Origin: Clostridiales bacterium
GTDB lineage: Bacteria; Bacillota; Clostridia; Saccharofermentanales; Saccharofermentanaceae
Reading direction: 5' to 3'
Assembly (NCBI GenBank): GCA_017617295.1
Contig: JAFZWN010000123.1
Coordinates: 1 to 33,367, forward strand
Length of the DNA stretch: 33,367 nt
A program made the position numbers and the translations under genes. This document shows positions 1 through 24,535 of the stretch, piece after piece. The notes below the pieces were generated by a model, which saw only the letters and a list, made by a program, of their open reading frames with translations, was not told the DNA's origin and searched no databases. How positions within the stretch are numbered: the stretch's first letter is position 1; every line of letters starts with the position of its first letter.

Positions 1-172
1 ACGGCATATACTGCCCCGCGGTATACTGTCTTTTTCATAAATTGTCCCCTTTAATTCCATTGTCTATATCTTTGTGACGAGACAGTTCATGTATATGTTG
101 CAAGGGATTAACCTGTGAGAGTTAAGCCGGTCATCGATCTTCCCGGGCTCTTTAGTGATAAATCGAAGAGTT
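1..172. other. left-edge intergenic sequence, nothing recognised
   Basis: No open frame here has a plausible ribosome binding site or protein-like composition. I see no RNA gene or clear promoter. The sequence runs straight into the inverted-repeat array that begins at 173. Confidence 0.5.
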
Positions 173-366
173 TTGTACCATTTTTCGATTTTCGCCTAAA
201 TGGTACAATTATTTTCATTGATTTCTGTACCATTTTCGCGTGTTTGAGACAAATGGTACACAATTTCAAAGATTTTCTGTACCCTTTTAATGATTTATAG
301 CAATTTGGTACAAAAATCTCGATGTTTTTTTGTACCAAATCTTTGATTTCGGCATTTTGGTACAAA
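173..366. repeat. array of four inverted-repeat units, 52-nt period (TTGTACCA/TGGTACAA)
   Basis: Four units start at 173, 225, 277 and 330, giving steps of 52, 52 and 53 nt. Each unit is 36-37 nt, opens with (T/C)TGTACC and closes with its inverse GGTACA. The first has perfect 11-bp arms, TTGTACCATTT and AAATGGTACAA. The eight GTAC cores lie at 175, 203, 227, 256, 279, 308, 332 and 360, so gaps alternate 28-29 and 23-24 nt. Sequences between the arms are AT-rich and not conserved. The last unit abuts the terminator of the DUF4214 gene. Function is unknown; related arrays occur near 5083, 17246 and 24133. Confidence 0.85.
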
Positions 367-403
367 AAATACTCCGGCCATCAGCCGTGCTGATAACCGG
401 AGT
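363..403 (-). terminator. intrinsic terminator of the DUF4214 protein gene
   Basis: Read on the minus strand, a CTCCGG stem (397-402) pairs with CCGGAG (372-377), with further inner pairing TATCAGC/GCTGATG, followed by TATTTTTTG. It lies 23 nt beyond the stop codon of the gene ending at 426. Confidence 0.85.
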
Positions 404-425
404 TACAGGAATAATTAAGCAATGG

Positions 426-2630
426 TTATCTTACGATCCCGTAGCTCGCGCAGATCTGACCGAACTCTTGCGACTGTGCGAACCCGTTAAATACTTCCTC
501 ACGGGAAACACCTGAATCAAGCTGGGCTACCCAGGCATCGAATCCCGAAGCGTCTGCTTCACGGCCCATGAAGGTACGGTAAAGGCGGTTGACGAATTCG
601 GCATTGGACACGTTCTGGAGGGTAAACTCTTCACTGAAGAAGAATCCCCTTGCAGCTCCCGTACCGGTATCTCGCTGATTTGCAAGCTGTCTAGCCCAGG
701 CCATGAGACCCACAGGATCGGCATCCCGTCCGAGACATGTCGTATAAAGCCTTGTGGCGAATTCGATAGTCTGGGAATTAGGGTCAACTTCTATGGAAGG
801 CGTTCCCGTTCCGCCGCTTCTGATACCGTAAAGAAGACAGAGATTCGCCCATTCGGTGGAATTGATAAAGCCTTCGATAATCTCCTGCTTGCTCCCGCCG
901 TGATCAAGGACTGCCACCCATCCGGCCAGTCCGTCGGCGTCCGCCTCACGGTTGAAGAAAGTACGGTAGAGCACGCGCACGAACTCTTCGTTAGAAACAT
1001 TCTTGTTTAAGAACTCGGGGCTGTAAAGGAACCCTCTTGCAAGATCAGCTCCGGTCTGGCCTCTCTCGGTAACAGCCGCGATCCAGTCAGCCTTGCCTAC
1101 AGGGTCAGACGCGCGTCCAAGTGCCACGGTATAAAGCCTCTCGACGAAGTCGGCAACACTGAATCCTGAAGATGACACGGCCGGTGCCGGAACGGAACCT
1201 CCCGTACCCGAAGGAGCAGAACCGCTTCCGCTGCTTCCGCCGCTTCCGCTGCTTCCGCTGCTTCCGCCCGGGCGAAGGATCGAGAAATCCGCCGTAGCCG
1301 AACCCGGATTATATATATCATCTCCAGGATATGTGGCTCTGACCGTATAGTCGCCGGCTGCTGCGGGAACGGTCGTTGAATAAGTGGAATCGTCCGCTCC
1401 CCTCTCCTTATATTCATAGATCATCGAAGCGCCCGTGGGCGGATCGGAAACCTGCGGACTACAAGGCGTCTCGCCTTCATTCCAGTCGTCTATCTCGAGC
1501 ATCAGGACGGGATCGATCTTACTCACCGTTACCATAACATAATCGAACGGGGAACTGAAATATCCGTCAGAAGCTTTGGCAAATGCAAAATAGTAAACAT
1601 AATATGTTCCGGGCATATCGGCTTTGGGAACAGCCGTGCTGAAATTCTGATAACCGCCCAAGTAGGTGGTAACGCAATAAGCCATCCTGCCATTTTGAGC
1701 CGTGCCGGGGATGACCATATCAGCCCCCGAACAGGCCGTCAGCCCCTCTACCGGAACAGGCGGCGTGACTACAACCGCATTGGGAAGTTCATAACGATAC
1801 GGATAAGTGATATGACTGAACATCCAGTCTTCCTGGTCAGTATATTGCTCATAGTTGCCGAACGTAGAGAAACATATTACCTCTTCATTTCCGGTAGATA
1901 TATCCCTTATATCCTGGCTGAAATAACATCCCGGATTAACATGCAATTGTACGCCTGCATATCCGTCCTTAAAACATCCGTTGGTATCGAGCGCAAGAGC
2001 AAGCGAAAGCTCTCCGATACAGCTGCGAAGGTTTCCGTTGTTCTCATCAGACCTGCTGATCTGCACATCTATAAGACTTGTGCAATGGCTGTTATCGAGG
2101 CGCAGATAATTGATCCTGCTGTCATACAACGCTCCGGTGCCGGATTCAAAGCACAAGCCTTCATTGACAGTACACCCTGCCATGACCAGCGTATCATTTC
2201 GATTCACTGAAACAGCGACATCGACAGTCGAATTCTCGATAGTTATCTGTCCGGGGTTCTGATCAGACCAAATTTTCAGTATGCCGTCCCCTGCGCTCCC
2301 GATGGTAGAGCCGCCGATGACAAGGTCATGTCCGTCAAGGTCAAGATAGACGATCCCTCCGTCGGTCAGATTCAGGGTAAGATCCTCAGAAGTAACGGTG
2401 ACATCAGTCAAAAGTGTGATCTCATCCTGAGCGCCTGCCGCAGCGAAAGCCTCCGCAAGCGAACTGTACTTTGGTCTGTTTTCGACAGGATACTGATTAA
2501 ATCTTCCTACGCTCGCGACCTCGCCGTCAGCCCGGACAGTCTTTCCAGCAAGGGGGATACATCCTCCGGCCAGGGCAAAGCTCAGAGCAACACTTATAAC
2601 ACGCTTGAAAAACGTTTTTCCTCCAAACAT
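426..2630 (-). CDS. secreted DUF4214 repeat protein
   Basis: Predicted secreted protein of 734 residues. I place the start at the ATG at 2630 because AAAGGAGA lies 7 nt upstream and the protein then opens with a signal peptide (Lys-rich start, hydrophobic core to about residue 30). The frame stays open to 2729, but that would put 33 residues before the signal. Order: signal peptide; about 240 residues of short beta-strand-like repeats resembling a right-handed beta-helix; two Ig-like domains (about 290-370 and 373-452); a Gly/Ser linker (about 455-485); two C-terminal DUF4214 blocks (about 492-603 and 621-731), each with paired copies of the RLYxxxLGRxADxxG pattern. DUF4214 occurs in secreted and surface proteins, often with carbohydrate-related contexts, but its function is not settled. 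The gene has its own promoter and terminator, so it is probably monocistronic. Confidence 0.85.
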   Translation of the reverse strand: MFGGKTFFKRVISVALSFALAGGCIPLAGKTVRADGEVASVGRFNQYPVENRPKYSSLAEAFAAAGAQDEITLLTDVTVTSEDLTLNLTDGGIVYLDLDGHDLVIGGSTIGSAGDGILKIWSDQNPGQITIENSTVDVAVSVNRNDTLVMAGCTVNEGLCFESGTGALYDSRINYLRLDNSHCTSLIDVQISRSDENNGNLRSCIGELSLALALDTNGCFKDGYAGVQLHVNPGCYFSQDIRDISTGNEEVICFSTFGNYEQYTDQEDWMFSHITYPYRYELPNAVVVTPPVPVEGLTACSGADMVIPGTAQNGRMAYCVTTYLGGYQNFSTAVPKADMPGTYYVYYFAFAKASDGYFSSPFDYVMVTVSKIDPVLMLEIDDWNEGETPCSPQVSDPPTGASMIYEYKERGADDSTYSTTVPAAAGDYTVRATYPGDDIYNPGSATADFSILRPGGSSGSSGSGGSSGSGSAPSGTGGSVPAPAVSSSGFSVADFVERLYTVALGRASDPVGKADWIAAVTERGQTGADLARGFLYSPEFLNKNVSNEEFVRVLYRTFFNREADADGLAGWVAVLDHGGSKQEIIEGFINSTEWANLCLLYGIRSGGTGTPSIEVDPNSQTIEFATRLYTTCLGRDADPVGLMAWARQLANQRDTGTGAARGFFFSEEFTLQNVSNAEFVNRLYRTFMGREADASGFDAWVAQLDSGVSREEVFNGFAQSQEFGQICASYGIVR

Positions 2631-2670
2631 CAGGCTATCTCCTTTCGCTGTTATCCCATCAGATATTTTC

Positions 2671-2698
2671 ATTATATCGAAAAGTGATTTTACAACAA
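2671..2698 (-). promoter_or_regulatory. candidate sigma-A promoter of the DUF4214 gene
   Basis: On the minus strand TTGTTG (2693-2698) is followed after 16 nt by a perfect TATAAT (2671-2676). The -10 element lies about 40 nt upstream of the chosen start. Confidence 0.6.
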
Positions 2699-2711
2699 CA
2701 GCTGAACCGCA

Positions 2712-2750
2712 TAAAAACACCGCCCACATCAGTCAGCGATGCAGGCGGCG
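2712..2750 (-). terminator. intrinsic terminator after the rubrerythrin reading frame
   Basis: On the minus strand a GC-rich hairpin (GGCGG paired with CCGCC, inner GATG with CATC, loop about 2731-2737) is followed by TTTTT (2713-2717). It starts 26 nt after the stop codon at 2776. Confidence 0.85.
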
Positions 2751-24089: not shown

Positions 24090-24132
24090 CAGACCGGTCC
24101 TCTTTCAAGGCTTCGGATCATCCACACCGGCG

Positions 24133-24440
24133 GATGTACCACATTTCCCTTCTCAATTGAGTTTATATGGTACAGGTATATGGTACATCAAGGCAGATGT
24201 ACCACATTTCCCCTCTCAATTGAGTTTATATGGTACGGGTATATGGTACATCCGGGCATGACGGGCGATGAACGGCGAAGAGTATCGATCCATGGACAGC
24301 AATAATTTTGGCAAAAAGCAGATGTACCACTAAAGGCGCTAAAATACCGATTTACTGGTACCAACCTCTGGTACATTCAGGCAGATGTACCACTAAATCC
24401 ACAAAAATACCGATTTACTGGTACCACTTAGTGGTACATC
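24133..24440. repeat. four-unit inverted-repeat array, 63-nt period (GATGTACCA/TGGTACATC)
   Basis: 57-nt units start at 24133, 24196, 24321 and 24384, that is steps of 63, 125 and 63 nt; 125 is about twice the step, as if one unit were missing. Each unit has GTAC at +3, +37 and +50, so the internal spacing 34 and 13 nt is fixed in all four. Units 1 and 2 are near-identical and contain the palindrome CTCAATTGAG; units 3 and 4 share ATACCGATTTACTGGTACC. Units are joined by an AGGCA-type linker. It lies between convergent genes. Confidence 0.85.
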
Positions 24441-24535
24441 CGGGCATTTACACCTCAAAAAAGCATCATAACCCGACCGCACATGTCCCTCCCCCAAAAC
24501 CAGGAGCAACTTCAGGTGACTTGACAGAGGACAAA

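Follow-up and report, generated by a model that had tools for sequence, protein, structure and literature searches.

An array of helix-phased inverted repeats in a Clostridiales genome and its probable partnership with a family of nuclease-like proteins

Results

The array and its surroundings

The DNA analysed here, referred to as the window, is a stretch of 33,367 nucleotides from a Clostridiales bacterium and represents one entire contig (C47) of a 2.96-Mb assembly of 156 contigs. Close to its left end, next to the 3' end of a gene with four DUF4214 stretches, positions 173-366 carry eight arms in alternating orientation that form four inverted TGTACC/GGTACA pairs (Table 1). The initial annotation had described a four-unit inverted-repeat array beside a terminator, and indeed all four pairs were found, and the terminator is that of the neighbouring gene. 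One correction concerns unit 3, whose inverted arms are imperfect. GTACC starts at 175, 227, 279 and 332, which gives the reported steps of 52, 52 and 53 nt; these hold for the left arms, while GGTAC starts at 202, 255, 307 and 359 and the right arms step by 53, 52 and 52 nt. Symmetry centres within and between units (190.5, 216.5, 243, 269, 295, 321.5 and 347.5) are 26-26.5 nt apart. A comparison with shuffled DNA had been proposed, and it supported the array: GTACC-N22/23-GGTAC pairs occur four times in window positions 1-425, whereas 4998 of 5000 dinucleotide shuffles contained none and the other two contained one. This confirms that the array is real and well above chance.

Table 1. Features of the window
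Feature	Position	Strand	Description	Basis
Left flank up to contig end	1..172	.	contains AAGCCGG	
Array unit 1	173..208	.	arms 173-180 and 201-208 (TTGTACCA / TGGTACAA)	sequence
Array unit 2	225..261	.	arms 225-232 and 254-261	sequence
Array unit 3, imperfect	277..313	.	left arm TGTACCC opposite TTTGGTACA; right arm 306-313	
Array unit 4	330..365	.	arms 330-337 and 358-365	sequence
Terminator stem-loop of gene 426-2729	about 371..403	-	adjoins array	minus-strand fold and sequence
Neighbouring gene	426..2729	-	four DUF4214 stretches; 3' end towards array	
Second related array family (B)	24129..24446	.	two plus two 63-nt units, between ends of two genes	

A paralog of the neighbouring gene on contig C66 likewise adjoins a matching array. 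The two arrays align over 197 nt without an indel; all 48 arm-core letters are identical, compared with 124 of the 149 other letters. The conserved interiors expected from a simple tandem duplication were thus not seen, in agreement with the initial annotation. The claim that only the arms are kept was nevertheless too strict, because the interiors are not fully free: A-type units have a weak asymmetric, GATTTnCGGCA-like core in common. Array interiors in other species tend towards an A-run on one strand.

A flank bearing GGATCTG / AAGCCGG precedes several arrays and modules of the window's genome (window 124-130, L361, L407, L406 and L110) and adjoins a large GTCAAGG...CCTTGAC palindrome at several loci. 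Possibly this flank belongs to a longer element.

Sister arrays in the genome and the genus

We searched the window's genome with a 50-position model (R1) and obtained matches of the same architecture on contigs C66, C33, C140, C92, C7, C20, C97, C142, C144, C99 and others. The arm words of these sisters are TGTACCA, TGCACCA or GTATACCA, and TTCTACTAAA on C108. A second related family (B) was represented by 37 model matches with E below 1e-10, that in the window among them, and carries three GTACC/GGTAC arms per 63-nt unit. B arrays were also seen on contigs C5, C6, C7, C28, C35, C63, C67, C76, C84, C104, C129 and C138; their units are 63/64 nt long, and two of one subtype often adjoin two of another. 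By eye only, A interiors read on the reverse strand resemble B interiors. A further 62-nt tandem repeat with AGTACCGCGCACAGTACAC (L031:2685-2800) adjoins a single A unit on C128.

R1 also matched eight other genomes, all of the same genus (9 of 118 counting the window's own). Several of these were single and weak matches, and those in G074 and G075 did not look array-like. The clear arrays of other genomes keep the 52-nt register, and their words include TTGTATCAAA, TTTTCTATCAAA and TTTTACACCA. In 19 hand-listed arrays from six genomes (G000, G005, G012, G014, G029 and G077), which differ in their arm words, 52 steps measured 52.10 +/- 0.60 nt. The earlier proposal that the spacing is under selection is therefore well supported. 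A two-unit model (R3), built on 30 dimers, matched 37 of 148 relatives, 36 of the same genus and one of the same family; among 299 genomes of the phylum it had no match outside the window's own genome. We conclude that the array system spans the genus and that arm words vary by locus and species while the geometry is constant. Eight arms are the commonest size, with four and with twelve or more also seen. Solitary arrays adjoin unrelated housekeeping genes, often between convergent genes, and were found in convergent, tandem and divergent gaps.

Passive extragenic repeats of the REP or MITE type, which copy themselves and inherit their spacing without a partner protein, would leave dispersed near-identical copies. 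Such copies exist, on C97/C142/C144 in the window's genome and in G124, where 20 copies lie in 19 stretches, mostly inside longer shared repeats, and some (e.g., L289) share scarcely more than the array itself. However, each G124 copy has eight arms, 159 of the 160 arms are perfect, and in the 18 copies of equal length 1 of 88 arm columns is variable versus 58 of 105 elsewhere. Invariant arms in a variable remainder, a register held constant across species with unrelated arm words, and the linkage to one protein family described below make a purely passive origin very improbable.

Some other repeats came up outside this set. A long array with TGTCATACCA arms and 64-nt steps (L144:1383-1760) lies in G059, a genome without an R3 match. 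In the Bacillota MAG Tb.RUG.186 (L202:825-918 and other contigs) we noted TGCACCAAA...TTTGGTGCA hairpins, one pair of them 63 nt apart. Doublets of the same type at 53, 53 and 55 nt (L156:3711-3795, L221:6092-6176 and L226:4174-4261) directly precede ATPase_2 genes; two of the MAGs concerned are from Chlamydiae and one is gammaproteobacterial. They prompted us to consider ATPase_2 (PF01637) as a partner, which was dropped because the window's genome contains only a single, sub-cutoff match.

A family of nuclease-like proteins adjoins the arrays

Comparison of array-adjoining proteins across genomes yielded one family of about 265 aa, with members in G000, G005, G019, G032, G124, G130 and G132. 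Eight members align at 59% mean column identity, and no Pfam or NCBIfam family scored above its cut-off. PADLOC profiles hit the C-terminal half, PDC-S68 in all eight members and HEAT_CxxC_PDDEXK in four, and in tblastn searches plasmid-borne AAA/RecD-like proteins matched the same half through segments of C-terminal type. Judged from these matches the C-terminal domain is of PD-(D/E)XK type and nuclease-like, with cutting only inferred. Acidic residues are kept at E163 (42/42 proteins), D193 (42/42) and E208 (41/42), which we take to be the PD-(D/E)XK active-site motif; the usual lysine two residues past E208 is absent and position 212 is variable. Family matches were present in 83 of 148 relatives, with up to 11 paralogs per genome and nine in the window's genome, eight of them near full length. 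Viral contigs contained no relatives of the protein; phage records contained two, one at 97% query cover and 31.6% identity.

The family gene was recognised by motif at 42 of 50 loci. At least two symmetry steps of 24.5-27 nt within 420 nt upstream were found for 27 of these 42 genes, compared with 1 of 122 upstream regions of other genes. When 14 genes placed from search coordinates were added, 52 of the 56 genes had one 9-mer four or more times in the adjoining DNA, as did 6 of 56 shuffled upstream sequences. In this test real genes could use either side and shuffles only one, and for a few genes the top word differed from the phased arm; the repeats lie downstream instead of upstream in a few genes (L336, L353, L378 and L410). 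In the window's genome, repeats of differing periods lie upstream of every one of the eight near-full-length paralogs (C140, C89, C39, C63, C2, C143, C93 and C114). Across the genus, a strong family member (E < 1e-90) was present in 31 of 36 genomes with model-detected arrays and in 12 of 49 without (Fisher 1.4e-8), and direct inspection of these 12 found arrays beside several of the genes. G072, G004 and G118 have array matches and no family match at 1e-10. Since the genomes are related, gene and array counts are not independent.

Array words are mostly private to one gene. Of the solitary arrays, 26 of 40 have a word in common with a gene array of their own genome, each with one module; counted by pairs of solitary and gene arrays, words are shared in 26 of 168 same-genome pairs versus 54 of 1192 pairs from different genomes. 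The word of the window array matches the module of the paralog on C140, where both TGCACCA and TGGTACA arms occur in the array, and also a G130 module in another genome. A same-genome module match was lacking for the solitary arrays of G012 (4/4 examined) and G029 (2/2), where some paralogs remained unexamined, for three of five G019 arrays, and for G007 and C128. The window's B array matched none of eight gene modules examined in the same genome, and no partner gene was identified for the B arrays in general. Protein distance and arm similarity were uncorrelated (Mantel rho -0.02, 32 gene-array pairs, a similarity measure with a high floor), and near-matching arms occurred only in the six pairs above 70% protein identity. 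A tblastn search against window positions 1-430 and a scan of the flank found no fragment of a nuclease-like gene. The window array is most likely one of the solitary copies of an array for cooperative binding, binding itself being inferred, and the C140 paralog is the best candidate for its partner.

Ordinary operators offer another account of these arrays: the protein would then act as a transcription factor, with the solitary arrays as its regulon. The position upstream of the family's own genes fits this, as does the best -35-like hexamer, which overlaps the last arm in a few of them (L333, L109, L369 and L334). A promoter between array and gene was found in 12 of 33 cases versus 8.0 expected, overall not significant. 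We consider a regulon of this kind unlikely, because solitary arrays stand by unrelated housekeeping genes, often in convergent gaps, and the conserved C-terminal domain is nuclease-like.

Array periods follow the helical repeat

The initial annotation had also noted that 52 nt is close to five turns of B-DNA. Sister arrays bear this out, since those before other paralogs have periods of about 32, 41 or 63 nt, and periods overall cluster near 32, 41, 52 and 63 nt, that is, at 3, 4, 5 and 6 helical turns. Same-strand steps numbered 8 at 31-32 nt, 12 at 41-42, 147 at 50-53, 10 at 62-64 and 11 at 103-106, and were scarce at 33-38, 46-49 and 54-59. With one period per gene (50 genes) the resultant was 0.83 at 10.5. 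For the 12 that lie outside 49-54, with doubtful cases retained, the resultant was 0.635, a value reached by 137 of 20000 uniform draws. Three sister arrays at 32 nt (C143, C93 and C114) are direct repeats.

DNA sites rather than RNA hairpins

Either a protein binding in phase or RNA hairpins had been suggested as the cause of the spacing. If the arrays acted as RNA, they would be tandem hairpins upstream of the nuclease-like gene, for example a type III antitoxin or structured 5' leaders. The predicted folds are strong (z about -9 on either strand), and the array stands before a nuclease-like gene as repeats stand before ToxN/CptN (PMC4627078). However, arms of neighbouring units are as complementary to each other as arms of one unit: over 30 aligned dimers, covariation scored 0.315 within units and 0.302 between neighbouring units. 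All arms in an array match one another, and hence the hairpin is not singled out. Re-pairing arms within arrays indeed costs little complementarity, the observed value being reached by 2081 of 20000 permutations; an exception is G077 C36, with a unit-specific excess (0.90 within versus 0.73 across units). Arm mismatches are strand-symmetric, with 16 G.T and 21 A.C. On C63, TGTATTCCA-like left arms stand opposite TGGCATACA-like right arms in units 1-3, with the order reversed in unit 4, as expected for independently read half-sites; that such variants face each other speaks against a hairpin. So do the direct-repeat arrays of sister genes, the occurrence of solitary arrays in convergent, tandem and divergent gaps alike, and the lack of any Rfam match at gathering threshold in the window. 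Together, these points leave an RNA function highly doubtful. On the mismatch and covariation patterns we favour double-stranded DNA sites, and of the two earlier suggestions phased protein binding is preferred, by inference.

Weak sub-threshold Rfam matches of the window were taken as chance. A strand-specific RNA role was rejected, as array orientation relative to neighbouring genes showed no consistency.

Discussion

We propose that the window array consists of eight double-stranded half-sites for cooperative protein binding and that its partner most likely belongs to the ~265-aa PD-(D/E)XK-type family, a reading to which we assign a probability of about 0.7. The array, its phasing, the genus-wide sisters, the linkage of genes and arrays and the shared words of 26 of 40 solitary arrays are observations; no binding or cutting by the protein was observed. 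Other points that weigh against the proposal are the missing Mantel correlation, genomes that have arrays without a detected family gene or the gene without a model-detected array, solitary arrays lacking a module match in their own genome, and the non-significant promoter scan. In the proposed mechanism, units repeat every five turns and the protein would bind the arms in phase. An array before a family gene might control that gene or seed assembly on it, and solitary arrays would be copies of gene-control arrays that the protein perhaps spreads or maintains. A tentative extension, possible rather than probable, is a two-part genetic element of a new class: each PD-(D/E)XK-type protein would have an array private to it, paralogs would diversify their words with spacing locked to whole helical turns, and the protein would nick or cut the arrays and so copy or homogenise them across the genome, as an analogue of the REPtron with an unrelated enzyme.

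Arrays and gene family are apparently an undescribed partnership of protein and DNA site; searches of the open-access PMC literature brought up no description of it. Anonymous intergenic repeats would thereby be tied to a protein family, and one genus offers dozens of natural protein-word pairs in which the code is testable. The arrays, with periods at 3, 4, 5 and 6 turns, would be one of the few natural cases showing that helix phase constrains a binding array. Paralogs of the same architecture with differing arm words also pose a concrete question on the evolution of specificity. Should the nuclease-like domain prove active, this is possibly a new route for the spread of short repeats in bacteria.

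Among known systems, REPIN/RAYT comprises species-specific dispersed extragenic inverted repeats with the gene of a cognate DNA-processing enzyme near some copies (PMC3116915 and PMC8266576). The likeness to dispersed arrays with an enzyme gene beside some copies is one of layout only. The array-linked protein is PD-(D/E)XK-like, and there are mostly eight helix-phased arms where a REP is a doublet. The Y1 HUH transposase (PF01797) had no match in the window's genome, which is 92% complete, while 5 of 14 control genomes were positive. REPs are described as carrying a GTAG-type foot tag; none was noticed in the array alignments, without a formal search.

Type III toxin-antitoxin systems (ToxIN, CptIN) resemble ours in having tandem repeats upstream of a nuclease gene; PMC4627078 describes CptN as a ribonuclease and ToxN as distantly homologous to the Kid-family toxins. 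The arrays differ in that conservation is limited to short arms, the protein has a PD-(D/E)XK-like domain, the symmetry is of DNA type and solitary arrays exist. In type III systems the RNA repeats are processed into pseudoknot antitoxins; for the arrays, the evidence against RNA pairing bears on this indirectly. The family did not qualify as a ToxN/CptN/TenpN-type ribonuclease, having no Pfam family above cut-off and PADLOC matches of PD-(D/E)XK type.

With the PD-(D/E)XK domains of AAA/RecD-like proteins and of the PADLOC PDC-S68 and HEAT_CxxC_PDDEXK profiles, the ~265-aa family shares its C-terminal domain, by profile and tblastn. It differs in being stand-alone, with an N-terminal half of its own and no Pfam family at cut-off. 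Finally, iteron or operator arrays of autoregulated DNA-binding proteins place in-register half-sites upstream of the gene. The system described here departs from them in its up to 11 paralogs per genome, mostly private words, periods of several turn numbers and solitary copies throughout the genome.
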